From: Bacteroidales bacterium
Lineage (GTDB): Bacteria > Bacteroidota > Bacteroidia > Bacteroidales > Muribaculaceae
DNA length: 54,634 nt
NCBI GenBank assembly: GCA_014800735.1
Contig: JAAVFP010000023.1
Coordinates: 26,981 to 81,614, forward strand
Direction: 5' to 3'
This document shows positions 17,740 to 52,330 of this stretch, piece after piece. The first letter of the stretch is position 1; each line of letters begins with the position of its first letter. A model generated the notes under the pieces. The model was not told the origin of the DNA, searched no databases, and saw only the letters and a list, made by a program, of their open reading frames with translations. The position numbers were made by a program, and so were the translations under genes.

Positions 17740-17750
17740 AGAAACTGCTG

Positions 17751-18277: not shown

Positions 18278-18290
18278 CTCTTACTAAGAG
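18278..18290. promoter_or_regulatory. Operator-like palindrome CTCTTAnTAAGAG, site 3
   Basis: CTCTTACTAAGAG lies within the predicted leader of the right SusC transcript, 105 bp before the ATG. Confidence 0.6.
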
Positions 18291-18395
18291 TCACTTCCTT
18301 CCCGATTTTTCTCATCAAGCAACAGAAAAAATTAACTCAATCTCCTCGGCTTCGGCCGGGATAAGAAATCAACCAACAATCCAAACCAATCTTTT

Positions 18396-32096: not shown

Positions 32097-32117
32097 ATAA
32101 TTAGAACAATAAATTTG

Positions 32118-32155
32118 GCGCCTCTGCGGTCGGTTGACCTCAGAGGCGCTTTTTT
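32118..32155 (+). terminator. Terminator of the surface-protein gene
   Basis: GCGCCTCTG (32118-32126) pairs with CAGAGGCGC (32141-32149), with an inner GGTC/GACC stem, followed by six T. Confidence 0.95.
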
Positions 32156-32347
32156 ACCCCTAAATCTCGACGATTTTTGCCGAGGGTAGGGCAGGGCAGC
32201 TCCAAATTTTTAATTCTCGCGAAGTTTAAAATTGACTAATGAGCTATGACAAAGCTGAATATAACTATTTTGTGTATTTGTATTTCTTGCTTATCTAAAA
32301 TTTTGTGCCTGATTACCCCTCATTACTGCTAATTGAATTAAATTTAG

Positions 32348-32355
32348 TATCTTTG
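32348..32355 (+). promoter_or_regulatory. -7 promoter element for ybeY-mnmG
   Basis: TATCTTTG, 23 bp before the ybeY ATG. A -33 element is not obvious. Confidence 0.6.
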
Positions 32356-32378
32356 CACGTTAATGTAATCACGAAAAT

Positions 32379-32807
32379 ATGACTCCGGAATTTCAGTGGA
32401 TGGTATCGGGGGTTGAGCTCCCGAAGCTTGATTATCAACGGCTTGAACAGTGGATTGTGAATGTGGCTCAATCCCACGACCGCATTGTGCGCTCCGTCAA
32501 CTACATTTTCTGCGACGATGCTAAGATTCTGGAAGTCAACCGCGAATTCCTTCAGCACGATTATTATACTGATATAATCACCTTTGATGACTGCACGGGC
32601 CGTTTGCTGCGTGGCGACATTTTCCTGTCGCTCGACACTGTGCGAAGCAATGCCGAGCTTGTAGGCGCTACCTACGACCGCGAACTGCTCCGCGTGATTA
32701 TCCACGGTGTCCTCCATCTGTGCGGTATCAACGATAAGGGTCCCGGCGAACGCGAGATTATGGAAGCAAACGAGGATGCCGCACTCGCAATGTGGGACTC
32801 GATGTAA
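32379..32807 (+). CDS. ybeY: Endoribonuclease YbeY, rRNA maturation factor
   Basis: A 142-aa zinc-dependent RNase involved in 16S rRNA 3'-end processing and ribosome quality control. The metal-binding motif IIHGVLHLCGINDKG is present, with the third His of HxxxHxxxxxH replaced by Asp (GINDK), as often seen in Bacteroidota. The preceding YTDIITFDD and RGDIFLSLDTV match the conserved core sheet. It is followed after 10 bp by mnmG and is probably transcribed with it from the promoter at 32348-32355. Confidence 0.93.
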   Translation: MTPEFQWMVSGVELPKLDYQRLEQWIVNVAQSHDRIVRSVNYIFCDDAKILEVNREFLQHDYYTDIITFDDCTGRLLRGDIFLSLDTVRSNAELVGATYDRELLRVIIHGVLHLCGINDKGPGEREIMEANEDAALAMWDSM

Positions 32808-32817
32808 TTTTGACACT

Positions 32818-34698
32818 ATGAGATTTGATTTTGATGTAATTGTGGTTGGAGCCGGTCACGCCGGATGCGAGGCCGCCCATGCGGCGGCTCGCATCGGTGC
32901 GCGCACACTGCTCATCACAATGGATATGAACAAGATTGCGCAGATGAGCTGCAACCCTGCCGTAGGCGGTATTGCCAAGGGCCAGATTGTCCGCGAAATC
33001 GATGCCCTCGGTGGCATGATGGGTATTGTCACCGACCGGACCTCCATTCAGTTCCGCATGCTCAACCGCTCCAAGGGGCCGGCCATGTGGAGCCCGCGTT
33101 CTCAGGCCGACCGCAACAAGTTCTCGGCCTTGTGGCGCGAGATTCTCGAGAACACCCCTAATCTGTCCATGTGGCAGGGTAGTGTGGACCGTCTGGTCTT
33201 CGATGAGGACGGTTCCCTGGCCGGCGTGCAAACCGTGGAGGGTGCCGAGTTCCGCGCACGCTGCGTGGTGCTTACCAACGGCACCTTTCTCAACGGACTC
33301 ATGCACATTGGCCGGGTAATGTTCCCCGGCGGCCGCATCTCCGAACCGTCATCCCACGGACTCACCGAGCAACTCAAGGAACTGGGCTTCGCTGCCGACC
33401 GCATGAAAACCGGAACACCCATGCGCCTGGATGGCCGAACTATTGATTTCAGCAAAACCATCCCCCAGGACGGCGACACGGATTTCCACCATTTTTCCTA
33501 TCTGCCCGGTGTGCGCTCGCAGCTTAAACAGCGCCAGTGCTATATTGCGTATACCAACGCTACAACCTGCGAAATCCTTCGCCGCGGTCTGCCTGATTCA
33601 CCGCTTTATAATGGACAGATTCAGTCCATCGGACCGCGCTACTGCCCTTCGGTCGAAACCAAAATTGTCACCTTTGCCGACAAAACCGAGCACCAGCTCT
33701 TCCTGGAGCCCGAGGGTGAAACCTCGCAGGAATTTTACGTGAACGGCTTTTCGTCGTCCATGCCAATGCCTATTCAGATTGAGGCTATATCGACTGTCCC
33801 GGCTCTTGCCGATGCGCAGCTGTACCGCGCAGGCTATGCTATCGAATACGACTTTTTTGACCCCCGTCAGCTTCATCACACACTCGAAACGAAGCTTGTC
33901 CCCGGTCTGTTTTTTGCCGGACAGATCAACGGCACCACGGGCTACGAGGAAGCGGCAGGGCAGGGCCTGGTGGCTGGGGCCAATGCAGCCCTTCAGGCGT
34001 TGGGTAAACCCGAGTTTACTCTCGGACGCGACCAGGCCTACATCGGCGTGCTGATTGACGACCTTGTGAACAAAGGCGTGGACGAACCCTACCGCATGTT
34101 CACCTCTCGAGCCGAATACCGCATCCTGCTACGCCAGGACGATGCCGATATGCGCCTCACCCCGCAGGGCCACGCAATCGGGCTGGCCGACGACGAGCGC
34201 TTACAGCTGATGGAAACCAAGCGTGCGCTCCGCGACAATATCATTGACTTTGCGCGGAACACCACCGTGCGCCCGGCCGAGGTGGAGCAGTTGCTTGCCG
34301 ACAGCGGTTCGACCCCTCTCACCCAGGGCGTGAAGCTTTATTCGCTCGTGCAGCGTCCGCAGCTCACCATAATGTCGCTTGCCGGAGTCCTCCCGCGCCT
34401 GAACGCGCTTGTTGAAAACATTCCAGCCGACCGCCGCGAGGAAATTGTTGAGGCTGCGGAAATTCTCATAAAGTACGAGGGCTACATTGCCCGCGAGCAA
34501 AGCATCGCGGATAAACTTCACCGTCTTGAGGAGGTCCGCCTGCCGGTCGATATTGACTACGATTCAATTCTGTCGTTATCCACCGAAGCCCGCCAGAAAC
34601 TCAAGCTTCACCGCCCGACGACAGTGGGCAATGCCTCGCGCATTCCCGGTATTTCGCCCAGCGATGTGAACATTTTGCTGTTACTCATGAACCGCTGA
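32818..34698 (+). CDS. mnmG: tRNA uridine-5-carboxymethylaminomethyl modification enzyme MnmG
   Basis: A 626-aa FAD-dependent enzyme (formerly GidA) that with MnmE installs the carboxymethylaminomethyl group at wobble U34 of certain tRNAs. The dinucleotide-binding motif VIVVGAGHAGCEAAHAAARIG is at the N-terminus, MSCNPAVGGIAKGQIVREID follows, and the second conserved block KTGTPMRLDGRTIDFSK and the C-terminal helical domain are complete. The ATG at 32818 precedes the FAD motif by a few residues; the longer open frame overlaps ybeY without homology. A parS site lies directly after the stop. MnmG next to parS is a classical origin-proximal arrangement. Confidence 0.97.
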   Translation: MRFDFDVIVVGAGHAGCEAAHAAARIGARTLLITMDMNKIAQMSCNPAVGGIAKGQIVREIDALGGMMGIVTDRTSIQFRMLNRSKGPAMWSPRSQADRNKFSALWREILENTPNLSMWQGSVDRLVFDEDGSLAGVQTVEGAEFRARCVVLTNGTFLNGLMHIGRVMFPGGRISEPSSHGLTEQLKELGFAADRMKTGTPMRLDGRTIDFSKTIPQDGDTDFHHFSYLPGVRSQLKQRQCYIAYTNATTCEILRRGLPDSPLYNGQIQSIGPRYCPSVETKIVTFADKTEHQLFLEPEGETSQEFYVNGFSSSMPMPIQIEAISTVPALADAQLYRAGYAIEYDFFDPRQLHHTLETKLVPGLFFAGQINGTTGYEEAAGQGLVAGANAALQALGKPEFTLGRDQAYIGVLIDDLVNKGVDEPYRMFTSRAEYRILLRQDDADMRLTPQGHAIGLADDERLQLMETKRALRDNIIDFARNTTVRPAEVEQLLADSGSTPLTQGVKLYSLVQRPQLTIMSLAGVLPRLNALVENIPADRREEIVEAAEILIKYEGYIAREQSIADKLHRLEEVRLPVDIDYDSILSLSTEARQKLKLHRPTTVGNASRIPGISPSDVNILLLLMNR

Positions 34699-41672: not shown

Positions 41673-43052
41673 TTATTCGCCCGCGGGAGCCAGTTGAACG
41701 GTGAAATGGCGCATCAGCGGGGCCTCCCAGGTGATTTTCACGCCGCGGGTGATTTCATCACGACGGTCGAAAACATTCTTGAGAGCCACGGCCACAACGT
41801 CCATGTGGTTGTGCGTGTAGGTGCGGCGGGGAATAGCCAGGCGCAGCAAGTCGAGGCCTCCGAAACGATTCTCGCGCGTCACAGGATCGCGGTCGGCCAG
41901 GATATAGCCTATTTCGCAGCCGCGGATACCGGCCTCGCGGTAAAGCTCCACAGTGAGTGTCTGGGCGGGGAATTCCTCCTTGGGTACGTTGGTAAGGATT
42001 TTTCCGGCATCCACAAAAATGGCGTGGCCACCGGCAGGGCGCTGATAGGGAATGCCGAACTCATCCAGGCGCTTTGCCAGATACTCCACCTGGTGGACGC
42101 GGGTCTCAAGATTGTCGAACTCCGTATTCTCGTCCAGACCCACAGCCAGGGCCTCCATGTCGCGCCCGTTCATGCCGCCGTAGGTCAGATAGCCCTCGAA
42201 GGGGATGGCGAACTGCTTGGCACCCTCGGCCCAGTCCTCGTGGCGGGTGGCGATAAAGCCGCCCATGTTCACGATGGCGTCCTTCTTGGCCGACATTGTC
42301 ATGGCGTCGGCCAGGTCGAACATCTCGTGCACGATTTCCTTGATTGTCTTGTCGGCATAGCCCTCCTCGCGCGTCTTGATGAAATAAGCATTCTCGGCAA
42401 AGCGTGCGGAGTCGAAAATCACGCGCACACCGTGGCGGTCGGCCACCTCGCGGACGGCCTTGAGATTAGCCATCGACACCGGCTGGCCACCGGCAGTATT
42501 GTTGGTGATGGTCACGATTACGAACGGCACCCGGCCCTCGTTCTCGGTGAGCACGCGGTCAAGCATCTCAACGTCCACATTGCCCTTGAACGGATGCTCC
42601 AGCTGGGTGTCCTTGGCTTCGGCAATAGTGCAGTCCACAGCAGTGGCCTTGCGACTCTCTATGTGGCCCTTGGTGGTGTCGAAATGCGAGTTGCCGGGCA
42701 CCACATCGCCCGCCTTCACCAGCGCGCTGAAAAGCACGTTTTCGGCCGCGCGCCCCTGGTGGGTCGGAATCACGATGGGGAAACCGGTGATGCGCTCAAT
42801 GGTGTCGCGCAGTTTGAAGAACGAGCGTGCGCCGGCATAGCTCTCGTCGCCCATCATCATCGCGCTCCACTGGCGGTCGCTCATAGCGCCCGTACCGGAG
42901 TCGGTGAGAAGATCGATATACACCTGCTCGGCAGGCAATTGAAACACATTGTAATGGGCTGCCTTGATCCACTCCTCGCGCTCGGCGCGGGTGCTTTTGC
43001 GGATAGGTTCAACCATTTTAATTCGCCAAGACTCGGCAAAAGGTAGTTCCAT
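41673..43052 (-). CDS. tnaA: Tryptophanase
   Basis: A 459-aa PLP-dependent beta-eliminating lyase giving indole, pyruvate and ammonia from tryptophan. The cofactor Lys lies in TMSAKKDAIVNMGGF, and GAMSDRQWSAMMMGDESYAG and IPTHQGRAAENVLF match the family. Tyrosine phenol-lyase is the close alternative, but two specificity positions favour tryptophanase: Asp in NSHFDTTKGH (Thr in tyrosine phenol-lyase) and a hydrophobic residue in GCEIG (Arg in tyrosine phenol-lyase). Translation starts at the ATG at 43052, with a promoter at 43084-43113. No tnaC-like leader peptide or tryptophan permease is adjacent. Indole production is a relevant gut signal. Confidence 0.93.
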   Translation of the reverse strand: MELPFAESWRIKMVEPIRKSTRAEREEWIKAAHYNVFQLPAEQVYIDLLTDSGTGAMSDRQWSAMMMGDESYAGARSFFKLRDTIERITGFPIVIPTHQGRAAENVLFSALVKAGDVVPGNSHFDTTKGHIESRKATAVDCTIAEAKDTQLEHPFKGNVDVEMLDRVLTENEGRVPFVIVTITNNTAGGQPVSMANLKAVREVADRHGVRVIFDSARFAENAYFIKTREEGYADKTIKEIVHEMFDLADAMTMSAKKDAIVNMGGFIATRHEDWAEGAKQFAIPFEGYLTYGGMNGRDMEALAVGLDENTEFDNLETRVHQVEYLAKRLDEFGIPYQRPAGGHAIFVDAGKILTNVPKEEFPAQTLTVELYREAGIRGCEIGYILADRDPVTRENRFGGLDLLRLAIPRRTYTHNHMDVVAVALKNVFDRRDEITRGVKITWEAPLMRHFTVQLAPAGE

Positions 43053-43083
43053 GGTAGTGATATTTAATTGAAGGTAGTGAACG

Positions 43084-43113
43084 CAAAATTAATAAAAAAG
43101 GCATAAAAGCCAA
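43084..43113 (-). promoter_or_regulatory. Promoter for tnaA
   Basis: Minus-strand TAATTTTG (43084-43091) with TTG (43111-43113) 19 bp upstream. Confidence 0.7.
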
Positions 43114-43164
43114 TGCCTCTAAATATTTTTAACAGCCCGAAGGAAAATAAATTTGCTTAAAAAA

Positions 43165-43194
43165 TTGTTAGTAGTTAGAAAATAACTATATTTG
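43165..43194 (+). promoter_or_regulatory. Promoter for the DUF2795 gene
   Basis: TTG (43165-43167), 19 bp, then TATATTTG (43187-43194). Confidence 0.75.
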
Positions 43195-43249
43195 CGCACT
43201 TTTCGCAACAGACAAAAATAATAACCTCACAATATAAATTCAAGACACT

Positions 43250-43471
43250 ATGTATTGGACACTTGAACTTGCCTCAAAACTCGAAGACGCACCCTGGCCC
43301 GCAACCAAGGAGGAACTCATCGACTACGCCATGCGCAGCGGCTCACCCCTCGAGGTAATTGAAAACCTCCAGGAAATCGAAGACGAAGGAGAAACCTACG
43401 AATCAATCGAAGACATCTGGCCCGACTACCCCTCCAAAGAAGACTTCCTCTTCAACGAGGACGAGTACTAA
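43250..43471 (+). CDS. DUF2795-domain small protein
   Basis: A 73-aa acidic protein matching DUF2795: WPATKEELIDYAMRSGSP, with helix EVIENLQEIEDEGETYESIEDIW following. The family is small, widespread in bacteria and without an established role. The C-terminus is strongly acidic (FLFNEDEY). It is monocistronic with its own promoter and terminator and is the last clearly core-like gene before the AT-rich accessory block. Confidence 0.9.
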   Translation: MYWTLELASKLEDAPWPATKEELIDYAMRSGSPLEVIENLQEIEDEGETYESIEDIWPDYPSKEDFLFNEDEY

Positions 43472-43501
43472 ACAATAAATTGTTGTAGATATCTGATAGA
43501 T

Positions 43502-43543
43502 AATGGCTAAGAAGATGAATAATTTTCTTGGCCATTGCTTTTT
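43502..43543 (+). terminator. Terminator after the DUF2795 gene
   Basis: AATGGCTAAGAA (43502-43513) pairs, with one G-U, with TTCTTGGCCATT (43525-43536), followed by five T. The right arm is also the first of three regularly spaced repeats. Confidence 0.75.
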
Positions 43544-43614
43544 ATCCCGCTTTACTCCATAGTTTTCTTGGCCAATCCCCTTTTTCTTTGTAAGTTTTGG
43601 GATATTCTTGGCTA
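43523..43614. repeat. Three 12-bp direct repeats at exactly 40-bp intervals
   Basis: TTTTCTTGGCCA at 43523 and 43563, and TATTCTTGGCTA at 43603. A fourth, inverted copy (TGGCTAAGAA) is at 43504-43513. The sequence between copies is not conserved, so this is iteron-like rather than a CRISPR array. It lies at the left edge of the accessory block. Confidence 0.6.
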
Positions 43615-43662
43615 AATTCTGACACTCCTCATAGGTTTGGGGGTATCTAAGAGTTCTATGCA

Positions 43663-43680
43663 ACAACCAGAATCAGTTGT
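43663..43680. promoter_or_regulatory. Operator-like dyad ACAAC-N8-GTTGT, site 1
   Basis: ACAACCAGAATCAGTTGT. The half-sites and spacing are identical to those of the dyad 29 bp downstream. Confidence 0.6.
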
Positions 43681-43691
43681 TTTCTAGTAAT

Positions 43692-43709
43692 ACAACCAAT
43701 TATTGTTGT
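43692..43709. promoter_or_regulatory. Operator-like dyad ACAAC-N8-GTTGT, site 2
   Basis: ACAACCAATTATTGTTGT. It covers the -33 element of the SatD-like gene promoter, a position suited to repression. Confidence 0.65.
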
Positions 43710-43736
43710 ATGTTTTAGTTTTATTTCATATCTTTG
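43706..43736 (+). promoter_or_regulatory. Promoter of the SatD-like gene (leaderless)
   Basis: TTG (43706-43708), 20 bp, then TATCTTTG (43729-43736). The -7 element ends 5 bp before the ATG, so the mRNA probably starts at or next to the initiation codon. Confidence 0.7.
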
Positions 43737-43741
43737 TTTCC

Positions 43742-45406
43742 ATGAAAATCGGAGCAATAATAACCGGAGATATTGTGGATTCCACAAAAATGACAAAGTC
43801 TGAACGCACTACAATGTTACAACTGTTGCAATCTCTGTCTGAAAGGCTGTCTCCATTGTGTAAAACGAATATTGAGATTTTCAGAGGAGATCGCTTCCAA
43901 CTAAGAGTTACCGAGCCAACCAAAACATTGCAGATAGCGCTGGCAATACGTGCTATTATCCGCGCCAATAAATTTGTAGGTAATAATGAGCAATGGGATG
44001 CTTGTTTGGCTATCGGTATCGGCACATTGGATTATGAAACAGATTCTCTTTCCACAAGTGACGGTGAGGCATACAGGCTATCGGATAGAAGACTTGGAGC
44101 ACGCCTGTATATTGACACTCCATGGGAAGAAGTGAATAAGGAACTAATGGTTTCCACTCTATTTGCTGATGATATAGTGACAGGGTGGACTCAAAGTCAA
44201 AGCCGGATAATGTTTGAGAAACTTGTCAAGGATCAAAATCAGGAACAGATTGGCAAGATATTGGAGGTTTCTCAGCAGAGTGTCAGCAAGACCTTGAAGG
44301 CGGCAAAGTGCCACATTATTTATAGTTGTATTGGAAGATTTGAAGAGCTTGTGACAGCGAGGAAATCTTTGAATTATACATACTGGAAGAAATATGTCAA
44401 AGAGTCTTCAAAGTTTTATATAGATAAGATGATGGAATTGACTGAGAATGGTGACAGACGTGAAATTCAGGGTGAATTGCGAGGGAAAGAAACGCCTCAT
44501 CATCTTATGTATAAACTCCCACGATTAGAATGCCCTGAGAATCCAGAAATCTACTATGAGTTTCTAATTGAATACGATATATACGATTCAGATGTGGGTA
44601 TATATTATGGCGTTAAGGGTATTTCTCCGGATGGCTCTAATCATGATGAGGCGATTGAGATTGCGACAAATCATTATGAAAAAATTAAGCCCAAATTATG
44701 CAAAATACTTAATAATGTATTTATAGATAAGGATTTTTCGAGAAGGTTTAAGATGACTAACAATGCCAATGACAACACATATTGGCCATTTTGGATTTCA
44801 TTATATGAGGATGAAGATATTAATAAAGTCGGTGTACTTGCTATAAATATAATCAGAGATACCTATGAGAAGCTTCTTCGTCCAAATCCGGAAGTTGAAA
44901 ACTATGTTGCGAAACTAAAGGGCAGGATGCCAAGTCAAAAATGTTTATCACGATTTACCGAAGATTCAATCAAATATTGGAGGGATTCTTTAGATTGTGT
45001 AGGCAAAAAAATAGATAGGCGCGTCTCAAGGTTAATTCTTGAGTTCCTTGCCCGCTCGCTTAAAGCGGGTTGGTTTAAACAACCTGTAATACCGGGAGCG
45101 ACTAATGGATATATGTTCATCCATAAGCACGCAAAGCATAAACGGGAATTCACAATCTTTTGGAAGACTCTGTTGAAAATGGTCGGCGAAAAACTAGAAC
45201 TACCTAAAGAAAAAAAGAAAATTGACGTTAGCTGGCATGCCGTAAGTTGCGTTTTTATGGCGGCCGATGGTTCTGTGTGGAGTGAAGACAATTTAAAGAG
45301 TACATATCAAACGAATTATCTGAATAAAGTTGAAAAAAACGAGGAGTACAAATTCTGGGAAAGAGAAATATCTGAAATTTTAAAGCAATGCTCTGAACCG
45401 TTATAA
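43742..45406 (+). CDS. SatD-like protein with HTH and a large C-terminal region
   Basis: A 554-aa cytoplasmic protein. Residues 1-~135 resemble the SatD family, which has a cyclase-like palm pattern: GAIITGDIVDSTKM at the first strand, IEIFRGDRFQL, then a strand IGIGTLDYETD and SDGEAYRLSDRRLGARL. Residues ~165-190 (NQEQIGKILEVSQQSVSKTL) look like a helix-turn-helix. The remaining ~350 residues, including a Trp-rich stretch and WFKQPVIPGATNGYMFIHKH, match nothing I recognise. The N-terminal Asp and GD residues could bind metal, so nucleotide chemistry is possible but unproven. Start at 43742 is fixed by the promoter. Paired dyads over the promoter suggest autoregulation. Base composition is clearly more AT-rich than its left neighbours. 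Confidence 0.65.
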   Translation: MKIGAIITGDIVDSTKMTKSERTTMLQLLQSLSERLSPLCKTNIEIFRGDRFQLRVTEPTKTLQIALAIRAIIRANKFVGNNEQWDACLAIGIGTLDYETDSLSTSDGEAYRLSDRRLGARLYIDTPWEEVNKELMVSTLFADDIVTGWTQSQSRIMFEKLVKDQNQEQIGKILEVSQQSVSKTLKAAKCHIIYSCIGRFEELVTARKSLNYTYWKKYVKESSKFYIDKMMELTENGDRREIQGELRGKETPHHLMYKLPRLECPENPEIYYEFLIEYDIYDSDVGIYYGVKGISPDGSNHDEAIEIATNHYEKIKPKLCKILNNVFIDKDFSRRFKMTNNANDNTYWPFWISLYEDEDINKVGVLAINIIRDTYEKLLRPNPEVENYVAKLKGRMPSQKCLSRFTEDSIKYWRDSLDCVGKKIDRRVSRLILEFLARSLKAGWFKQPVIPGATNGYMFIHKHAKHKREFTIFWKTLLKMVGEKLELPKEKKKIDVSWHAVSCVFMAADGSVWSEDNLKSTYQTNYLNKVEKNEEYKFWEREISEILKQCSEPL

Positions 45407-45446
45407 TTGTTTTGTTGACGTCATTTCGGGTGTAAAAACATCATGG

Positions 45447-45454
45447 TAACTTTG
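45447..45454 (+). promoter_or_regulatory. Possible -7 element overlapping the terminator stem
   Basis: TAACTTTG directly before and into the terminator arm at 45453. It could drive the downstream genes, since no other promoter was found between here and the DUF3825 gene; a chance match is equally possible. Confidence 0.35.
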
Positions 45455-45493
45455 CCACCGCAATCGAAAACCGATTGTGGTGGCATCTTTTTT
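45453..45493 (+). terminator. Terminator of the SatD-like gene
   Basis: TGCCACCGCAATCG (45453-45466) pairs, with one G-U, with CGATTGTGGTGGCA (45472-45485), followed by TC and six T. Confidence 0.9.
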
Positions 45494-45531
45494 GAAGGGT
45501 GACATCAAACACAAACATAACTAAAGATAAA

Positions 45532-45774
45532 ATGAAAAAACAACGAAAAGATGCCTGGGACGAATATCGTCGGACAGGTGTCAACAACAGTAATTTCGAT
45601 CTCAACGATCGAGATGAGATCGCAGCCATCACCGGATGGAACTGCGCAAGAGACAAAGGTCGTGCAGACGCATTTCGCAAATACCACCGCACGGGGGTAA
45701 ATCACAGCGAATATGACCTGACCGACCACGACCAGATTAGTTCAATCCTCAATGATCGAAAGAATCGTCGATGA
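45532..45774 (+). CDS. Small protein of two tandem ~28-residue repeats
   Basis: An 80-aa basic/polar protein with two copies of one motif: RKDAWDEYRRTGVNNSNFDL then NDRDEIAAI, and RADAFRKYHRTGVNHSEYDL then TDHDQISSI, joined by a short linker TGWNCARDKG. No family was recognised. The ATG at 45532 places the start a few residues before the first repeat. It lies 38 bp after the terminator of the SatD-like gene. Conservation of the repeat (W/F-x-x-Y-x-R-T-G-V-N-x-S-x-[FY]-D-L) suggests a real protein; a binding role is possible but unknown. Confidence 0.6.
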   Translation: MKKQRKDAWDEYRRTGVNNSNFDLNDRDEIAAITGWNCARDKGRADAFRKYHRTGVNHSEYDLTDHDQISSILNDRKNRR

Positions 45775-45817
45775 TTGTATGCTTCAGACTATAATAACCA
45801 ATATACAGAAGTAATAT

Positions 45818-46939
45818 ATGCCAATTATAGGAATGAAGAAACTTAACGGGCATCAGATTGATGTTCTCCGCCGTGCAATACTATTCCTCGTTGCACGCGA
45901 CGGGAAGGCTCGCCTCGTGATTCTAGCATCTCATCTACTGACACTCGATGAAAATGGTTTCAAAAGCGGATACTGGTGTGGTTATCGCAAACTACACCTA
46001 ATGATAGAGGCGTATCCGGAATTCTTTGAAATCTATGATGCCGATACAACTGATATGTCAGTGCGTATTGTCGGTAATCAAGGCCGTGTGGGTAATCAAT
46101 ATGCAAAGCAGCCTATCGATATGAACTTCGACCACTTTGTCTATAACTACATCACTTCTGAATTCGCAGATGAAATACGCCGAGAGTATAATCTCTCGGA
46201 TGGCATGGAAGATTACTGTGTATTCTGCAATTTCTTGAGGTATACTTATTACAAAGCAGAGAAAGAAGGGAAGGTATTGGAGCATGGCAACCTGAGAATG
46301 TTTCACACCGGTTGGTTCCACGACAACACCGATGATGTGTATATGTTGTGGGGCTATGATGAAGCGGGTAAAGTACAGGTATACTTTATTCGCCGCAGCG
46401 GTAAAGATGCACGAGATCTCATTCGGCTGTTTGGAAAAAGGGTCCCTATATTGGTTGAATTTCCCCTTCTGCAGTTCGAAACGAACCTACATATAGAGCC
46501 GGAGTATGGTCACATAATTGACGAACATGTTGACAGAATACCTGAAGAGACGATAGAAATGATACGTCATAGCATCGGTCTACAAGACAACGTTGAGAAT
46601 CAAAGTACTCAGGAGATTGTGCGCCTAGGACGTAATTTCCTTAGAAGACTTCTCGACGGCTGTATTACGGACACCCGGAAGCGACTTGCCAACCGCAGCG
46701 ATGAAGCAGTGCTGTTTTGGAACAGAACAACCAACAAGATGTGTTGGCTGATTCCTCTGAGGCTTGGGATTACCGAGAAGGTGAACCTTACTCTTGTCGT
46801 GGAGCCAAGTGTACTAAATGGAGAACCGACATACCGGGCCCACACCATATTGCCGCTTAGAGAAGCCTTCAAATGTGCACGTTTGCTTGGCCCTGTAAAG
46901 GCAGAATGGCTGAAGGATGCCTGGAAAGACAATAATTAA
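45818..46939 (+). CDS. LOTUS/OST-HTH-like and DUF3825 domain protein
   Basis: A 373-aa protein. Residues ~8-90 (LNGHQIDVLRRAILFLVARD through YDADTTDMSVRIVG) fit the winged-helix pattern of LOTUS/OST-HTH domains, which bind RNA in other proteins. Residues ~125-340 match DUF3825: CVFCNFLRYTYYKAEKEGKV, then MFHTGWFHDNTDDVYMLWGY, and the late block ALLFWNRTTNKMCWLIPLRL in related form (AVLFWNRTTNKMCWLIPLRL here). DUF3825 is uncharacterised and often follows an OST-HTH domain. The start could be ATG 45818 or the ATG at 45833. The zinc-ribbon gene starts 24 bp downstream. An RNA-related role is an inference from the N-terminal fold. Confidence 0.75.
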   Translation: MPIIGMKKLNGHQIDVLRRAILFLVARDGKARLVILASHLLTLDENGFKSGYWCGYRKLHLMIEAYPEFFEIYDADTTDMSVRIVGNQGRVGNQYAKQPIDMNFDHFVYNYITSEFADEIRREYNLSDGMEDYCVFCNFLRYTYYKAEKEGKVLEHGNLRMFHTGWFHDNTDDVYMLWGYDEAGKVQVYFIRRSGKDARDLIRLFGKRVPILVEFPLLQFETNLHIEPEYGHIIDEHVDRIPEETIEMIRHSIGLQDNVENQSTQEIVRLGRNFLRRLLDGCITDTRKRLANRSDEAVLFWNRTTNKMCWLIPLRLGITEKVNLTLVVEPSVLNGEPTYRAHTILPLREAFKCARLLGPVKAEWLKDAWKDNN

Positions 46940-46963
46940 TAATAACTTTTAAATCTGTAGATT

Positions 46964-47092
46964 ATGGGTACAGGATTTCGATGCCCCAAATGTGGGAGCT
47001 ATCATACCGTTTGGATTCCTTTCTCTATGGACGTAAAGTGCCTATGCTGTGGCAACGTCTTCGACCCAGAAGAGGAGGAACAGGAGGATTAG
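46964..47092 (+). CDS. 42-residue zinc-ribbon protein
   Basis: A very short open frame, MGTGFRCPKCGSYHTVWIPF and so on, with two metal-binding knuckles (CPKCG and CLCCG, 16 residues between the pairs) and an acidic tail FDPEEEEQED. The arrangement is that of a stand-alone zinc ribbon. It starts 24 bp after the DUF3825 gene and is probably co-transcribed with it. Too short for automatic gene finders with a 60-codon limit. It may be a subunit or adaptor of the neighbouring protein; function unknown. Confidence 0.7.
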   Translation: MGTGFRCPKCGSYHTVWIPFSMDVKCLCCGNVFDPEEEEQED

Positions 47093-47189
47093 TTTAGTCC
47101 TCGAAAGTTAACTAACGGACACGGCTTTGAAGCCAGATATGGGTAGAAATTTTATCGAAACATATCCGTCCACTATCACATATTAACCC

Positions 47190-47227
47190 GACTGCCGGGG
47201 TTCATGGTGGCCACCGCCCCGACAGTC
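47190..47227 (+). other. RNA hairpin in the gap before the FtsZ-C-like gene
   Basis: GACTGCCGGGG (47190-47200) pairs, with one mismatch, with CCCCGACAGTC (47217-47227) around the palindrome GGTGGCCACC. There is no T-tract, so it is not a standard terminator; the rest of the 181-bp gap shows no promoter or ORF. Confidence 0.5.
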
Positions 47228-47273
47228 ATAATTTATCCTTTAGATGATTTCCCGCAACTAAAGACTCAAAACA

Positions 47274-47660
47274 ATGAAACTCAAAATACAACAAACAAAT
47301 CTGGAGCCGATACGCAGGCTTCTGACTTATACTGACTCGGAACAGGTGATTGCCGTCAGTGATGAAGATGTGGACAATCTTTTGGACTCGGCTACAACCT
47401 TGTCCTTGCATACTTCACGTGGAGTCAATCTTAAAGATGCTCTTCAGAAACTGGACACGCAGGTACTCGACTGTGGAAAGGCAATAAAAGCCATATTCGT
47501 GGTGCGATGCTCACAGTCATATCAATTGCCTGTTTCGGAATTGTCAGATCTCAGCCAGTATATCAATGATAATCTACCCAAGGCCGATGTCCACTGGGGA
47601 TTTTCCATAATGGACGAATCAGAAGCAAATGTCACAGTCGTGGCAGCGACAACATATTAA
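47274..47660 (+). CDS. Stand-alone FtsZ C-terminal-domain-like protein
   Basis: A 128-aa protein that lines up with the C-terminal (non-GTPase) domain of FtsZ. AVSDEDVDNLLDSATTL corresponds to the VDFADVKTVM helix, TSRGVNLKDALQKLDTQVLD to the helix with GxAxGEDRA, AIKAIFVVRCSQSYQLPVSELSDL to the GVLVNITAG-LRLDEF strand and helix, and DVHWGFSIMDESEANVTVVAATTY to the final VIxGTSLDPD-VTVVATG strands. The GTP-binding half (GGGTGTG loop) is absent and there is no room for it upstream. It might interfere with or dock on FtsZ, or act as a structural module with neighbouring membrane proteins; both are inference. The homology is remote and judged by eye. Confidence 0.6.
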   Translation: MKLKIQQTNLEPIRRLLTYTDSEQVIAVSDEDVDNLLDSATTLSLHTSRGVNLKDALQKLDTQVLDCGKAIKAIFVVRCSQSYQLPVSELSDLSQYINDNLPKADVHWGFSIMDESEANVTVVAATTY

Positions 47661-47678
47661 ATCACAATAAGATCAATA

Positions 47679-47771
47679 ATGAGTCTGTCATGTGCCATTG
47701 CAGCAACTGCCATCTTCGCCAAACCGATGGTCAGGATTTCCATGAGAAATAATAAGAATAGTAACGACTAA
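47679..47771 (+). CDS. Possible 30-residue peptide
   Basis: An ATG-initiated frame, MSLSCAIAATAIFAKPMVRI plus a polar SMRNNKNSND tail, 18 bp after the FtsZ-C-like stop. The first half is hydrophobic, which would suit a small membrane or toxin-like peptide. There is no homology or ribosome-site evidence, so this is weakly supported. Confidence 0.3.
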   Translation: MSLSCAIAATAIFAKPMVRISMRNNKNSND

Positions 47772-47782
47772 AACCTTCTAAT

Positions 47783-47819
47783 GGGAGGCAATGGAATCGC
47801 GCCTCTTCTATTGCCTCCC
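47783..47819 (+). other. Hairpin in the leader of the YaaW-family gene
   Basis: GGGAGGCAAT (47783-47792) pairs perfectly with ATTGCCTCCC (47810-47819). There is no T-tract. An in-frame ATG at 47791 lies inside the left arm, which favours the ATG at 47830, just after the hairpin, as the true start. Confidence 0.55.
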
Positions 47820-47829
47820 CAATAAAGAT

Positions 47830-48561
47830 ATGTACTTAGATAGAGATTTGATTTTCCTCAATAAGGCAACCAATGATGATCTGTTGGTGCTTTGCGATAT
47901 CGTAACGAAAGAGAACGACGGCACTTATCGCACTACTGAGACTCTTTCCTCCACACGTTCTTACATTGGAAATTATCCGGATAATATCAAGAGGATGCTG
48001 CCCGAACTAATCCATGAGTTCAGGCTGTTCGGAGGTAATTCGGTACTGAATTTCTTTCGAGGAGAGGGACCGGGGTACTCGGAAATACTTCGCGATGTAG
48101 CAAACAAATGCAAAGTATCATTCAACGATGCGACTGCTAAGGATGAGCACGTGGAACAAATGCTGCTTGGTAAGCTTATAAAGGAGGTTCTTGACAATGC
48201 GTCGGATTATGAATTACGACAAATGATGCGAGAGTTGGATCTGCAGATTCCTTACTACAACCGCCGTAGGGTGATACTTGATCTTGAAAAATTGTGGAAA
48301 TCACATGATATTGCAGGATTCCTGCTCCTGACATCTGTTACTTCAATAGTCTTGACTCGATTGACGGGAATTGCTATAAGCACAGTTGCCGGAATCACAC
48401 TTCCAAGATTAACAGCGGTAATGCTGGGTCCGATTGGCTTGATTATGACCTCGCTATATTGTGCTATTGATTTTGCAGGTCCGGCGTATAGAGTCACCAT
48501 CCCCGCAGTAATTCAGATTGCCTATATTCGACAAAAAATAAAATTTAACTTAAAACAATAA
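47830..48561 (+). CDS. YaaW-family (UPF0174) protein
   Basis: A 243-aa protein clearly related to E. coli YaaW. The N-terminal DRDLIFLNKATNDDLLVLCD corresponds to YLNDSDLDFLQHCSEEQL; EFRLFGGNSVLNFFRGEG and YSEILRDVANKCKV match the conserved middle; and AGPAYRVTIPAVIQIAYIRQ is nearly identical to the C-terminal signature. Two hydrophobic segments (~residues 160-215) indicate membrane attachment. The family has no established function. Start chosen at 47830 because the upstream ATG (47791) is buried in a hairpin and the family begins near here; the longer form would be 256 aa. The small membrane protein follows after 6 bp, so they are coupled. Confidence 0.85.
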   Translation: MYLDRDLIFLNKATNDDLLVLCDIVTKENDGTYRTTETLSSTRSYIGNYPDNIKRMLPELIHEFRLFGGNSVLNFFRGEGPGYSEILRDVANKCKVSFNDATAKDEHVEQMLLGKLIKEVLDNASDYELRQMMRELDLQIPYYNRRRVILDLEKLWKSHDIAGFLLLTSVTSIVLTRLTGIAISTVAGITLPRLTAVMLGPIGLIMTSLYCAIDFAGPAYRVTIPAVIQIAYIRQKIKFNLKQ

Positions 48562-48567
48562 TTGCAA

Positions 48568-48834
48568 ATGATAGTAATATTATGGTGCGTAGCCATCCTG
48601 CAATGGCTCTGCTATATTTATTTGCCTACAGTGATGATGTACGGAGTAATACGTATGATGGCACAGCAGGATGTAACAGCTACTATATGTTCCCCATTTC
48701 TGGGAATCAAGAAAGTGTCCATGAAAAGCGGTTTTATTATATGGATGGTCCAGGTAATGTTTTTGGGTGTTGTTCTATATGATATAGGCCAATGGATTAG
48801 ATTTGGAGTCAATCCTCTCATAAAAATGTGGTAA
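48568..48834 (+). CDS. Small membrane protein with two hydrophobic helices
   Basis: An 88-aa protein with hydrophobic segments at residues ~2-28 (ILWCVAILQWLCYIYLPTVM) and ~55-78 (GFIIWMVQVMFLGVVLYDIG), joined by a short polar loop. No family recognised. The start ATG at 48568 lies 6 bp after the YaaW stop and the next ATG lies 11 bp past its own stop, so it belongs to a tight three-gene unit of YaaW, this protein and the Cys-rich repeat protein. Confidence 0.65.
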   Translation: MIVILWCVAILQWLCYIYLPTVMMYGVIRMMAQQDVTATICSPFLGIKKVSMKSGFIIWMVQVMFLGVVLYDIGQWIRFGVNPLIKMW

Positions 48835-48845
48835 CATGTTAGATT

Positions 48846-49625
48846 ATGGAAACAAACAAAACTAATGAGCAAAGCTCAAAATACCGCAACCCCCACTTCA
48901 GACCTACTCTCGTAGAATGCGATACCTGCTCAGGATGCGGAAAAGTTGATTGTACCGTATGTCAAGGGTCAGCTGAATGTCCTGCATGTGATGGTACTGG
49001 GCAATACCCCTGCCAGAGTTGCGATGGGGATGGTCAATGTGGCTTATGTAAAGGAAGTGGCGAACTCATATGTAAAAAATGTGAGGGAGAGGGCCGTTTT
49101 ACTGCGACGTGTAAGATATGTGATGGAGACGGTGTTTGTCCAGAATGTTATGGCGAAGGAGGATATTGGCTAGGTTTATATTCCTATAAATGCTCAGCTT
49201 GCGCTGGTACGGGAGAGTGTGGTTCATGTGGAGGCTCTGGAGAAAAGGAACTGTAGTGCCGAAACTGCGAAGGGACAGGCAAAATAGAATGTTTTAGATG
49301 TGATGGCGACGGCGAATGTAAGAAATGCGATGGCCAAGGATTCTTTGAATGCAAACGATGCGAAGGCGAGGGCAAATGTTCACGTTGTGATGGTCGAGGC
49401 TATTTCCATTGCAAAGAATGTAGAGGCAGAGGAAAAGTCCACGAAAATCATAGACAAGGAAACACCCGGAAACAAAATGTGTCCAGACATCAAGCATCGA
49501 GCAATGTCGGTACTCGCAGCAGAACATCAGCTCCGTCTTACGGCCCGGTACCGATAAGAATAGTAGGTAGAATCGATCTTGAATCCAATGATTGCACCAT
49601 TCATCCATATAAGAATCCCGAATAA
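48846..49625 (+). pseudogene. Cys-rich DnaJ-like zinc-finger repeat protein, interrupted by in-frame TAG
   Basis: The reading frame runs 259 codons but is broken by TAG at 49254-49256. Ten CxxC-type modules (e.g. CPACDGTG, CQSCDGDG, CKKCEGEG) precede the stop and six more follow in the same frame (CRNCEGTG, CFRCDGDG, CKKCDGQG, CKRCEGEG, CSRCDGRG, CKECRGRG). Modules resemble the CxxCxGxG zinc-binding repeats of DnaJ, but there is no J domain. The sequence around the stop (GSGEKEL-stop-CRNCEGTG) aligns with an earlier module (GSGELICKKCEGEG), showing that one ancestral protein was split by a point mutation. A 136-aa truncated product could still be made; readthrough is possible but unproven. 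The 3' end overlaps the rhuM remnant. Confidence 0.8.
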
Positions 49626-50124
49626 TGATCGGATAACAAATTGTTTTCTTGGCGAACTGTATAATACGAGCAACGCTAAGGTCAGGGAGCACATTAAGCA
49701 TATCTTCGACGACGGAGAACTTGATGAGGAATCAGTTGTTCGGAAATTCCGAACAACTGCCGCTGATGGCAAATCCTATAATGTAACGTTCTATAATATC
49801 TACATGATTATCTCACTGGGGTATGGAATTAAGTCATTGATTGCCACTCATTTCAGGCGGTGAGCTACCGAGCGGCTGAAGGAGTACATTATCAAGGGAT
49901 TTACCATGGATGATGAGCGGTTGAAGGGAAATGGCGGAGGTGCTTATTGGCGAGAACTGCTCGACAGAATCCGCGACATCCGGTCATCTGAAAAGGTGAT
50001 ATATCGGCAGGTACTTGACCTTTATGCAACGGCGGTAGATTATGACCCTCGTTCGGCGATTTCTGTTGAGCTTGCGAAACGTGAGTTGCTGATTTCAATC
50101 TTGTCGATCTCAACGACAGCCTGA
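49588..50124 (+). pseudogene. rhuM-family remnant, interrupted by TGA
   Basis: The translation carries RhuM-family signatures: EHIKHIFDDGELDEESVVRKF, then TTAADGKSYNVTFYNIYMII, and, after the stop, ATERLKEYIIKGFTMDDERL and ELLDRIRDIRSSEKVIYRQV. The stop TGA at 49861-49863 falls exactly where the family has Trp (FRxWAT), consistent with a single TGG to TGA change. The N-terminus lacks roughly 30 residues of the family, and the C-terminus diverges soon after VDYDP and ends early. RhuM proteins have no settled function, though they occur beside restriction or abortive-infection genes. The remnant overlaps the end of the Cys-rich repeat frame. Confidence 0.8.
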
Positions 50125-50247
50125 TGTCGATATAACTCACTGCAGCAGCTGGCCATCCAAAGCTCGTGGGTAAAGTGGTGTGCCATGAACCGGAGGTGAG
50201 AACCGTTTTCTTGCTCTGTGCGTTATAAAAACAAAAAAGAATCCACT
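50125..50247. other. Right edge of the accessory block
   Basis: A short gap where base composition returns to GC-rich. It has no tRNA, integrase or obvious direct repeat. TTTTCTTG at 50206-50213 matches part of the left-edge repeat TTTTCTTGGCCA, but eight bases is within chance. Confidence 0.3.
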
Positions 50248-50610
50248 ATGACAAGAAAAGAACTCACTGACCTTATAGCCGAAAAGGTGGCTGAAGTCAT
50301 CAATAATCCCGCACCCTGGGGCGAGGATCCGCAGATAAGCATTATTCCCACAACTTTGCTTGTTGACATCGAACGACACGAGGATGCCGACCGCTCGATT
50401 GAGTTCAGCAACGAGGCCATCGAGGCCGACGCCGCCATCGATGGCGATTATTCGGAAGACGCTGCCGATTTCCAGTCGGCCTCCGACCCCGACCTCTATC
50501 CGGTCGGGACTCTCATTGACTATGCCGGCAAGAAGCCCGATTTGAAGAAAATCGCCCGGCTTGTTGAGCAATACATCCCCGAGCAGGCCGAAAACCTCTA
50601 CGCCGAGTAA
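50248..50610 (+). CDS. Conserved-looking small acidic protein, function unknown
   Basis: A 120-aa cytoplasmic protein: an N-terminal helix (MTRKELTDLIAEKVAEVINN), an acidic Asp/Ala/Glu-rich middle (DADRSIEFSNEAIEADAAID) and a C-terminal helix (KPDLKKIARLVEQYIPEQAE). No family recognised. GC-rich codon use matches the core genes rather than the accessory block to its left. The ATG at 50248 is preferred because the upstream codons have no features. A 13-bp-stem terminator follows 19 bp after the stop. Confidence 0.7.
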   Translation: MTRKELTDLIAEKVAEVINNPAPWGEDPQISIIPTTLLVDIERHEDADRSIEFSNEAIEADAAIDGDYSEDAADFQSASDPDLYPVGTLIDYAGKKPDLKKIARLVEQYIPEQAENLYAE

Positions 50611-50629
50611 CTCCGCGCCCAATCCATAT

Positions 50630-50669
50630 AATTGGCTGTGTCAAAACTATAAGCGACACAGCCAATTTT
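50630..50669 (+). terminator. Terminator after the small acidic-protein gene
   Basis: AATTGGCTGTGTC (50630-50642) pairs perfectly with GACACAGCCAATT (50655-50667), followed by a short T-run. Confidence 0.85.
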
Positions 50670-50788
50670 GTATCCTGCTCACTGCTGAATTGTTCCAGTC
50701 CTGCACTGTCGTCCTCAAGCAATGGCAGTGTTGCATTCACGCATCAAAAAAACATATTTTTTAAGATTAAAAAATGTGCTTTTCATAA

Positions 50789-50806
50789 TAATTTTGGTTA
50801 ATTTTG
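50789..50806 (+). promoter_or_regulatory. Tandem -7 elements for nhaD
   Basis: TAATTTTG occurs at 50789-50796 and again at 50799-50806. The resulting ~100-nt leader contains a small hairpin, GGCAGCC (50878-50884) with GGCTGCC (50894-50900), just before the ATG at 50909. Confidence 0.55.
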
Positions 50807-50908
50807 TTGCCGCAAAATTTTTGCGCGACATCACACTACAAATCTAATCGTCTAACACCTTAAATTTAGTTGACCCAGGCAGCCGGGATTGGGGGCTGCC
50901 AGAAGTAT

Positions 50909-52330
50909 ATGCTTACAGCGCTTATTGTGATTTTTGTTATCGGCTATCTTGCCATTGCCCTTGAGCACCCGCTCAAAGTTGATAAAACCGCCTCGGCCCT
51001 ATTGCTGGGCATGGTGTTGTGGATTGTCTATGCCCTTGGGGCCGACTCCATTGTGCCCCTTATCCACGGCGATGAACTCAAGGCCTACGTCGGCGGCACC
51101 TCGCTTGCCAACGAATCCCTGTTTCACCAGTCCCTGGCCTATGTGGTTAATGTGCAGATAGTTGAAAATCTCGGCGAAATCACCCAGACCCTCCTGTTCC
51201 TCATCGGAGCGATGACTATCGTTGAGCTTGTGGATGTGCACGGAGGCTTCCGCATTATCACCGAAAACATCAAGGCCCGCAATAAGAAAGCCCTGCTATG
51301 GGTGCTGTGCGGCACAACGTTCGTCCTCTCGGCCGTGCTCGATAATCTCACCACCACCATCGTGATGGTGATGCTCCTGCGCAAGCTGGTAGCCGACAAA
51401 AATGACCGCTGGCTCTATGCCGGCATGATTGTCATTGCAGCCAACACCGGCGGTGCATGGTCGCCCATCGGCGATGTCACCACGATTATGCTGTGGGTCA
51501 AGGGCAACGTTACAGCTCCGGCCCTTATCAAATTCGTGGCCATTCCCAGTATTGTTGCTCTGGTGGTGCCGCTGCTCATCATCTCGCGCCAGCTCAAAGG
51601 CCGCATCGCCGAGGTGCCCCAGCCCGCCGCCGCTGCCGCCGGCAACCACTCATCGCCCTGCAACCACCGCGAACAGCTCACCATGTTCACACTCGGCATC
51701 TGCGGCCTGATATTCGTGCCCATCTTCAAAACCATCACCCACCTTCCGCCGTTCATGGGCATGCTGCTGGTGCTCGGCATCCTGTGGGTGTTCACCGAGT
51801 GCTTCTACAACGGCAAGAAGATGCTCGACCGTGCCCAGGAGCACCGCATCCCTCGCGTGATTTCGCGCATCGACATGCCTTCGATCCTGTTCTTCCTCGG
51901 CATCCTCATGGCCGTGGCCGTGCTTCAGGCCACCGGCGTCCTGGGCGCACTCGCCACCTGGCTCGATACCAACGTACACAGCGTCTACGTCATCAACATC
52001 CTTCTTGGCGTCCTTTCGTCGATTGTCGACAACGTTCCTCTCGTCGCAGCCGCCATGGGCATGTATCCCATTGCCGATGTCACCGCCACGGGCTATGCCG
52101 CCAACTTCGTTGTTGACGGCTGTTTCTGGGAATTCCTCAGCTATTGCGCCGGTGTGGGCGGCAGCATCCTCATCATCGGTTCCGCGGCCGGCGTGATTGC
52201 CATGGGACTGGAGAAAATCAACTTCGGATGGTACCTGAAGAAAATCTCACTCCCGGCCCTCCTCGGCTACCTTGCCGGCGCCGCCGTATATATCCTTGAA
52301 GTCGAGTTCCTGAAACCGCTCTTAGGCTAA
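50909..52330 (+). CDS. nhaD: NhaD-family Na+/H+ antiporter
   Basis: A 473-aa inner-membrane antiporter with about 12 hydrophobic segments. NhaD features include the N-terminal YLAIALEHPLKVDKTASALL, TTFVLSAVLDNLTTTIVMVM with the conserved Asn/Thr-rich helix, ANTGGAWSPIGDVTTIMLW, and VLSSIVDNVPLVAAAMGMYP. It should exchange Na+ or Li+ for protons. The ATG at 50909 (MLTALIVIFVIG) is the family start; the upstream extension lacks homology. A short hairpin (50878-50900) lies 8 bp before the start and could modulate translation. It converges on dut, with 18 bp between stops. With the NhaC homologue this is the second Na+/H+ antiporter in the window. Confidence 0.94.
   Translation: MLTALIVIFVIGYLAIALEHPLKVDKTASALLLGMVLWIVYALGADSIVPLIHGDELKAYVGGTSLANESLFHQSLAYVVNVQIVENLGEITQTLLFLIGAMTIVELVDVHGGFRIITENIKARNKKALLWVLCGTTFVLSAVLDNLTTTIVMVMLLRKLVADKNDRWLYAGMIVIAANTGGAWSPIGDVTTIMLWVKGNVTAPALIKFVAIPSIVALVVPLLIISRQLKGRIAEVPQPAAAAAGNHSSPCNHREQLTMFTLGICGLIFVPIFKTITHLPPFMGMLLVLGILWVFTECFYNGKKMLDRAQEHRIPRVISRIDMPSILFFLGILMAVAVLQATGVLGALATWLDTNVHSVYVINILLGVLSSIVDNVPLVAAAMGMYPIADVTATGYAANFVVDGCFWEFLSYCAGVGGSILIIGSAAGVIAMGLEKINFGWYLKKISLPALLGYLAGAAVYILEVEFLKPLLG

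Follow-up and report, generated by a model that had tools for sequence, protein, structure and literature searches.

Juk-type immunity has been described in Pseudomonas, where it acts against nucleus-forming phages. According to a review, JukA senses early phage proteins at the infection vesicle and is combined with varied effectors; JukB is pore-forming, and in some cases JukA protects on its own (PMC13282480). In a different system, the T7 protein Gp0.4 bound to FtsZ triggers CapRel-Ebc, and Gp0.4 contacts the synergy loop and residues 262-270 and 292-303 (PMC13423816). Here we describe a locus that encodes both a relative of JukA and part of FtsZ. It lies in a 54,634-nucleotide stretch of a Bacteroidales genome from the family Muribaculaceae (GCA_014800735.1, contig JAAVFP010000023.1, positions 26,981 to 81,614), which we call the window. 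In the window, the 3' end of a DUF2795 gene is an integration hotspot, and its cargo is an AT-rich block. The core of this block is a mobile module of six genes (p80, DUF3825, zinc ribbon, FtsZC, JukA/YaaW, and TM). The module is most likely an anti-phage system, a reading that we hold with moderate confidence.

The module and its relatives

The gene order in the block is DUF2795, a fusion of SatD with a helix-turn-helix (HTH) domain, p80, DUF3825, zinc ribbon, FtsZC, JukA/YaaW, TM, an interrupted cysteine-rich (Cys-rich) gene, a rhuM remnant, and a 120-amino-acid (120-aa) gene. All of the recognised genes, and the other features given below, are on the + strand. Using the JukA protein as the query against 84,980 species genomes (a scan that is sensitive to close relatives only), we found two further loci, L013 and L014, in Mgla_MAG metagenome-assembled genomes. 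(L-numbers denote fetched loci of relatives and G-numbers denote genomes compared.) Both have all six module genes, with gene identities of 82-97%. From p80 to TM, the aligned DNA is 91.2% identical in L013 (as far as the Cys-rich gene) and 94.0-96.4% identical in L014. The gene order is kept, and from p80 on, the gaps between genes are equal within 3 bases in L013; two are shorter in L014.

Synonymous divergence (dS) of the module genes is 0.02-0.21, except for DUF3825 from L013, which gives 0.59 and 0.64 against the other two copies. Genes outside the module have higher values: 0.88 for the 120-aa gene (L014), 3.1 for DUF2795 (L013), and saturation for a flanking gene in L013 that we take to be PduO-like. 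Because dS is low within the module and the flanking genes are far more diverged, the module has moved recently by horizontal transfer. The ratio of nonsynonymous to synonymous divergence (dN/dS) inside the module is 0.17-0.48 in 16 of 17 comparisons, and the module genes are mostly under purifying selection.

Three of the genes also recur together elsewhere. In G300 and G521, DUF3825, a zinc ribbon, and FtsZC are side by side at a second, unrelated locus, in the order FtsZC-ribbon-DUF3825. The DUF3825 proteins there (L064 and L065) are full-length relatives at 32-33% identity and the FtsZC proteins are about 20% identical; the ribbon is of the same kind as the window's. The flanking genes are presumably of the gliding type and, past one more gene, of the pckA type. 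G300 and G521 are from the same genus and have the trio in the same place, so we count this as one independent recurrence. In our sample of the family (247 genomes, with the window's own genome counted), FtsZC was matched in at least nine genomes, DUF3825 in six, and TM in two. Nine is a lower bound because the FtsZC of G300 was missed by that query. (A DUF3825 match in G481 was weak and ran across another long frame, and it was not used as evidence for the module.)

FtsZC (47274..47660; 128 aa) is, by profile comparison, homologous to the C-terminal half of FtsZ. A profile of 11 members of the FtsZC family reached 40 PDB sequences at E<=1. Of these, 37 are FtsZ, 5 of them below 0.001, and the best is at 3.3e-6. 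Positions 14-128 of the profile align with FtsZ residues 219-338, which are the T7 loop and the C-terminal domain only. In a leave-out test, a model built from the proteins of the window, L013, L014, and L015 alone found a genuine FtsZ (L023) at 1.8e-5, plus other FtsZC proteins. Pfam's FtsZ_C is weakly reached by 4 of the 11 members (best 0.0076), and the window's FtsZC gives no match to it. The N-terminal GTPase domain is absent, as the 128-aa open reading frame (ORF) aligns to the C-terminal half of FtsZ only. The T7-loop residues are NxDxxD-like in some relatives (NIDKED in L020), AVSDED in the window's clade, and gapped in the pair from the second locus. Because the window's motif is partly lost, FtsZ-like longitudinal contacts may be lost as well. 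A structure prediction from three sequences had a mean confidence (pLDDT) of 46.9, and FtsZ does not appear in the list of 50 structure matches to this low-confidence model.

FtsZC also occurs in other settings. Its neighbours at other loci include RtcB, WYL, and ADP-ribosylglycohydrolase genes. In G322, it is about 5 kb downstream of DUF2795, at the same hotspot, with a PDDEXK_4 gene before it. In G509, it adjoins a broken relative of TM. At L015 (9833-10530), FtsZC stands beside a TM relative with one in-frame stop, next to what we take to be a tpiA-type gene; this may be a second, degraded copy of a portion of the module. G521 has two distinct FtsZC genes on separate contigs (L020 and L065). 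One is in the DUF3825 trio, and the other is in a longer ORF, after what is presumably a HAD-like domain.

The JukA/YaaW-family protein (47830..48561; 243 aa) matches all three of PADLOC's JukA models (E 1.2e-22 to 2.9e-51, 79-172 bits, with the query taken from 47791) as well as DUF3944 (E=1.3e-8). There is an alternative in-frame ATG upstream, at 47791; 47830 is the likely start, as three plasmid homologues (33-35% identical) begin at the equivalent place. Apart from L013 and L014, the nearest homologues found are on plasmids from Acinetobacter and Methylomonas (both 36%), on several from E. coli (34%), and in four viral contigs. At the loci of relatives examined, the neighbour is an HTH gene, DUF4258, or a small gene, and never FtsZC. 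The JukA model matched 1 of 295 genomes in a sample of the order (the window's own) and 9 of 198 in a sample of the phylum (own included). The JukA-like genes from the wider Bacteroidota (27-63 bits) look like a different branch and have no FtsZC or DUF3825 in the fetched stretches, so we set them aside. Just 6 bp after jukA is TM (48568..48834; 88 aa), which has two hydrophobic segments and no PADLOC match. Its relative in one other genome of the family sample is next to another FtsZC and has an in-frame stop.

The module begins with p80 (45532..45774; 80 aa), which is 89% identical in L013 and 94% identical in L014. It seems by eye to consist of two similar halves, and we found no convincing family for it. 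DUF3825 (45818..46939; 373 aa) has a clear match to its Pfam family (E=1.7e-23) and a weak N-terminal match to LOTUS/OST-HTH (E=0.22). Its predicted structure, also from three sequences, was unusable (pLDDT 37.5). The DUF3825 gene of L013 (6029-7153) is a mosaic relative to the window's: nucleotides 1-540 are 87-100% identical, 541-1020 are 50-80% identical, and the remainder is 93% identical. The central segment is swapped, as would be expected of a region that evolves under diversifying pressure. DUF3825 had no match in plasmids or phages, no relative was confirmed in viral contigs, and we found no paper on it in the literature searched, which covered few subscription papers. The zinc ribbon (46964..47092; 42 aa) has a CxxC..CxxC pattern and an acidic tail.

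Two hairpins lie within the module. One is upstream of FtsZC (47190..47227; z -3.83 for a 91-nt fragment) and is kept in L013 and L014. The other, with 14-nt arms, is just upstream of the likely start of JukA (47783..47819; z -5.27 for a 63-nt fragment). It is kept in L013, and one base is missing in L014. Both are possible sites of transcript processing or attenuation. Between FtsZC and JukA we also noticed, by eye, a small ORF of 30 codons (47,679-47,771), which is shared by L013 but deleted from L014.

The integration site and the neighbouring cassettes

The block follows a resident DUF2795 gene (43250..43471; 73 aa; Pfam DUF2795 E=4.8e-17), which was matched in 22 of 25 genomes of the same genus. 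The final 24 bp of the gene (43448..43471) form an att-like core that is repeated downstream in relatives. We searched for this repeat in 31 sequences (283 kb), namely 20 same-genus loci (L128-L147), 8 other loci (L148-L155), L013, L014, and the window. Allowing up to 4 mismatches, there were 15 matches outside an intact-looking DUF2795 gene. By its coordinates, the match in L147 is the gene's own end, so 14 extra copies remain. Shuffled sequences (20 Markov-shuffled sets) gave a mean of 0.0 matches. Extra copies are present in at least six of the 20 loci from the same genus (L135, L136, L140, L141, L145, and L146); this is a lower bound because several contigs run out after a few hundred bases to 5 kb.

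In the window, the 24-bp end is followed by an att-like stretch (43472..43638) with a terminator-like stem (43501-43537) and TTCTTGGCCA-type repeats. This stretch is 80% identical at the DNA level to copies in L013 (at 3893) and L014 (at 209). In an alignment of 28 copies, a terminator-like stem follows most of them, often with TTCTTGGCCA-type repeats. The stems vary in sequence with their pairing retained (as judged by eye), and the stem and repeat sequences fall into at least two classes.

A tyrosine integrase is encoded directly 3' of DUF2795 in L133 (Phage_integrase E=6.9e-19). In a tblastn search of the 20 same-genus loci, L144 (88%) and L147 (50%) gave relatives of this gene and L135 gave a fragment; an integrase gene adjoins DUF2795 in 3 of the 20 loci, with the fragment in a fourth. 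No integrase was seen in the window's block. In L013, 24-bp copies at 3893 and 13054 flank the module on both sides. The window has the left copy only, and none was found at 49,000-50,300 even when allowing 8 mismatches. The 24-bp end has no exact match in viral contigs. Other cassettes at this site include SatD-DUF3307, RhuM, an AAA/DUF4143 gene, the integrase, and others. We conclude that the 3' end of DUF2795 is an integration hotspot and that the block is its cargo, not a plain operon. There is no tRNA gene in the whole window and hence no tRNA integration site, and no Rfam family reached its gathering score in 43,200-50,900. Among the literature matches listed, no paper treats DUF2795 as an integration site or makes relevant use of DUF2795 or SatD. 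In practice, the DUF2795 end offers a single site at which to mine the family for cassettes.

The first gene of the block encodes a fusion protein of 554 aa (43742..45406). It consists of a SatD-like and HTH part (about aa 1-207) and an unnamed C-terminal domain (about aa 238-532) for which we found no convincing Pfam family and no PDB relative. The Pfam match to SatD is under the cut-off (E=2.5e-4), as is that of a stand-alone relative (6.2e-6). In the family sample, 22 other genomes match the fusion protein, 18 of them in the SatD-HTH part only (about aa 1-209, in open frames of 205-327 aa) and 4 in the C-terminal part only; none of the 22 has the fusion. Each of the seven SatD relatives that are close (>=60% identity, L028-L034) has the 24-bp repeat about 250-510 bp upstream. 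A DUF3307-type gene follows SatD in all six related genomes that were inspected downstream (it was Pfam-tested in one and is split in two frames in G365). In contrast, the window's SatD-HTH is fused to another domain, without DUF3307. At two loci, L149 (1574-3491) and L154 (1442-3218, on the reverse strand with DUF2795 forward), a SatD-DUF3307 unit of 1.8-1.9 kb lies between 24-bp repeats, so this unit could be a minimal cassette in its own right.

L013 and L014 have a different fusion in the same place. Its N-terminus is of the RhuM type (PADLOC PDC-S05 3.5e-24; Pfam 5.8e-6, below the cut-off) and is joined to a C-terminal domain that is 30-32% identical to the window's. The window's SatD also departs from five aligned proteins: RGDSF is replaced by RGDRF, and the SG[RK]xLD stretch is altered and 4 residues shorter. 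These changes hint at decay or repurposing. Between the fusion gene and the module there is a terminator-like hairpin followed by a T run (45453..45485; 14 pairs; fragment z -4.35). SatD-HTH belongs to the hotspot as a cassette of its own and lies outside the module. (Sequence motifs raised the idea that SatD might be a class III nucleotide cyclase. The matches to the Ma1120 cyclase were weak, at E 0.46-1.1, and the best match in that search was an unrelated carbamoyltransferase at E=0.0045.)

On the right side, the Cys-rich gene resembles DnaJ zinc fingers and is in two pieces in the window, 48846..49256 (with an in-frame stop at 49,254-49,256) and 49257..49625 (88.5% aa identity to the gene in L013). 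It is intact in L013 (259 aa) and has no match in L014, so it is probably an optional neighbour; perhaps it does not belong to the module. The rhuM remnant (49579..50124; Pfam Virulence_RhuM E=3.8e-9 for the first piece) has an in-frame stop and a foreign N-terminal stretch. rhuM is intact in L013 (338 aa), where about 3.5 kb with several genes lies between it and the Cys-rich gene. This segment is missing in the window, along with the N-terminus of rhuM. PADLOC places the remnant and other RhuM relatives in the candidate defence family PDC-S05, and the window's copy is broken. Like the SatD-HTH fusion, the remnant is a neighbour and not a module member. The right edge of the block is near 50,250, at the start of the resident 120-aa gene (50248..50610), which has a 77% identical (aa) relative 3' of the module in L014. 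L014 also has, past the module and in the opposite orientation, a gene (6172-6726) that we presume to be TerD-like.

A preliminary description of the window had proposed an AT-rich accessory block of genes on one strand, flanked by GC-rich core genes. The composition agrees with this. In 1-kb steps, GC content is 0.365-0.478 (37-48%) across 43,001-51,000, compared to 0.547-0.654 (55-65%) at 38-43 kb and 51-54.5 kb, which gives a block of about 43.1-50.9 kb. GC content at third codon positions is 0.32-0.48 in the island genes and 0.65-0.75 in three resident genes measured on both sides. (GC content also dips at 17,001-18,500, to 0.39-0.47, and at 31,501-33,000, to 0.48-0.49.) The single-strand arrangement was correct too. 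Of the domain labels, DUF3825, the zinc ribbon, YaaW (by the DUF3944 and JukA models), and the membrane protein stand, and the FtsZ-C-like label is supported by the family profile and not by Pfam alone. The LOTUS and SatD labels are weak, and the Cys-rich and rhuM genes are present, but not as whole genes. The same description had asked whether the genes co-occur in relatives or are a mosaic of unrelated insertions. The six central genes do co-occur, in three genomes, and the trio recurs at the second locus. SatD-HTH, rhuM, and perhaps the Cys-rich gene are separate. The block is a mosaic in part and a unit in part.

Possible functions of the module

We infer a defence role for the module and, with it, a likely sensor and effector. 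By analogy to JukA in Pseudomonas, the JukA/YaaW-family protein would sense an early infection structure or protein, and the two-TM protein encoded behind it would, by the same analogy, be a membrane effector. DUF3825 and the zinc ribbon could be an RNA- or protein-binding partner of FtsZC. FtsZC might bait phage proteins that bind FtsZ or tubulins, or it might block division upon activation. The preliminary description had suggested a stress or defence system that acts on the envelope or on division. Because the central genes co-occur (and moved together) and include a JukA/YaaW member, defence of this kind is a reasonable lead with a named relative; SatD-HTH, rhuM, and probably the Cys-rich gene would be outside the system.

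Several observations weigh against this interpretation. E. coli's chromosomal YaaW scores 146 and 192 bits where the window's protein scores 172 and 159. Across the same three JukA models, E. coli YaaW scores 76-192 bits and the plasmid JukA-like proteins 64-241, so membership in the JukA family proves neither Juk function nor defence by itself. We saw JukA next to FtsZC only in the three module copies, which are closely related. FtsZC and DUF3825 are also encoded at loci that lack JukA, and JukA at others that lack them; in the fetched stretches, neither FtsZC nor DUF3825 was present at any JukA locus other than the module copies. Beyond the module copies, we examined 12 DUF3825 loci (those in G300 and G521, plus 10 from the remaining 11 non-self genomes that gave a DUF3825 match). 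Ten of the 12 (L066-L068 and L086-L092; some stretches are 5-7 kb) lack FtsZC. The other module members have no convincing PADLOC match (the best is the zinc ribbon, E=0.0096). The FtsZC comparison between the window and L014 gives a dN/dS of 1.2, from very few changes. Finally, the neighbourhood of the block is decaying in this genome.

A rival explanation is hotspot debris, that is, independent cassettes that piled up after DUF2795 and left the module genes adjacent by insertion history, with no joint function. The first gene differs between the window and L013/L014, and at other loci this site is taken by SatD, RhuM, the AAA/DUF4143 gene, integrases, and others. Also, two genes are broken in the window, and the three near-identical copies represent one lineage. 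However, the six genes keep their order and near-equal spacing, dN/dS is below 0.5 in nearly all comparisons, and DUF3825, a zinc ribbon, and FtsZC are together at a different locus, where DUF3825 and FtsZC have low identity to the window's proteins. We consider debris doubtful. A cell-intrinsic module for stress or division control, YaaW-like and not anti-phage, seems fairly improbable to us. It would account for FtsZC as a derivative of a division protein and for E. coli yaaW (annotated msyB), which is beside dnaK-yaaI in an E. coli record and scores like JukA. Also, four of eight JukA-like loci in the wider Bacteroidota adjoin genes that we take to encode amylomaltase. On the other hand, such a module would not be expected to have so patchy a distribution (the single order genome and the few family genomes given above), an AT-rich mobile setting, and a recent transfer. 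It is highly improbable that the block instead holds one or more toxin-antitoxin pairs, such as the two-TM protein as the toxin with a neighbour as the antitoxin. The small two-TM protein so close behind jukA and the other small accessory genes would suit this, but searches of Pfam, NCBIfam, PADLOC, and PHROGs linked nothing convincingly to a toxin or antitoxin family, and the only relative of TM in the family sample has an in-frame stop.

If the module is an anti-phage system, FtsZC could act in at least two ways. It might be an integrated decoy of the FtsZ half that is bound by phage division inhibitors or phage tubulins, with DUF3825 and JukA reading out the binding and triggering the membrane effector. 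The decoy idea arises from Gp0.4, whose contacts on FtsZ, going by residue numbering, would fall in the half that FtsZC represents. We consider it unlikely. The main alternative to a decoy is that FtsZC is the effector. It would be made or released upon infection, and its T7-loop face would cap filaments of the host's FtsZ or of phage tubulin, so that division stops. The T7-loop half of FtsZ carries one polymer face, FtsZC has this half, and NxDxxD-like residues are kept in some relatives. The motif is partly lost in the window's clade and gapped in the second-locus pair, however, and we rate the capping effector as improbable. Returning to the anti-phage reading as a whole, a JukA-relative module in gut Bacteroidales would, if true, bring Juk-type immunity into a major order of gut bacteria and identify new partners for it. 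A stand-alone FtsZ fragment in such a module would make decoys of phage targets in bacterial immunity directly testable.

Comparison with known systems

Like Juk, the window has a JukA/YaaW-family protein, a membrane protein encoded directly behind it, and an accessory mobile setting. Unlike in Juk, no JukB-like match was seen, and DUF3825, the zinc ribbon, and FtsZC precede its jukA. The portions of the Juk literature available to us do not mention the DUF3825-ribbon-FtsZC set. The protein can also be compared to E. coli YaaW (NCBIfam PRK10236, where it is named MsyB), to which it is 27% identical over 240 aligned positions. It matches PRK10236 with E=9.3e-22, but at 78 bits versus a cut-off of 395. 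E. coli yaaW is in an apparently fixed place beside dnaK, whereas the window's relative is in a mobile block.

FtsZ and FtsZC are homologous over nearly the whole of FtsZC, but FtsZC has just 128 aa, lacks the GTPase domain, and has partly lost the T7 motif. Among the literature matches listed, which covered few subscription papers, no paper reports a stand-alone half of FtsZ in a defence locus. FtsZl1 and FtsZl2 are, like FtsZC, derived from FtsZ and encoded in accessory operons. They have an FtsZ-like nucleotide-binding domain (PMC2875224), whereas FtsZC is the C-terminal half only. CapRel-Ebc gives a precedent for the involvement of FtsZ in phage sensing (PMC13423816). That system uses the host's own FtsZ and a toxin-antitoxin fusion as the sensor (PMC13423816), whereas the window has a separate FtsZ fragment beside a relative of JukA. 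If FtsZC does turn out to be a decoy, it would be a bacterial counterpart of plant decoy immunity.

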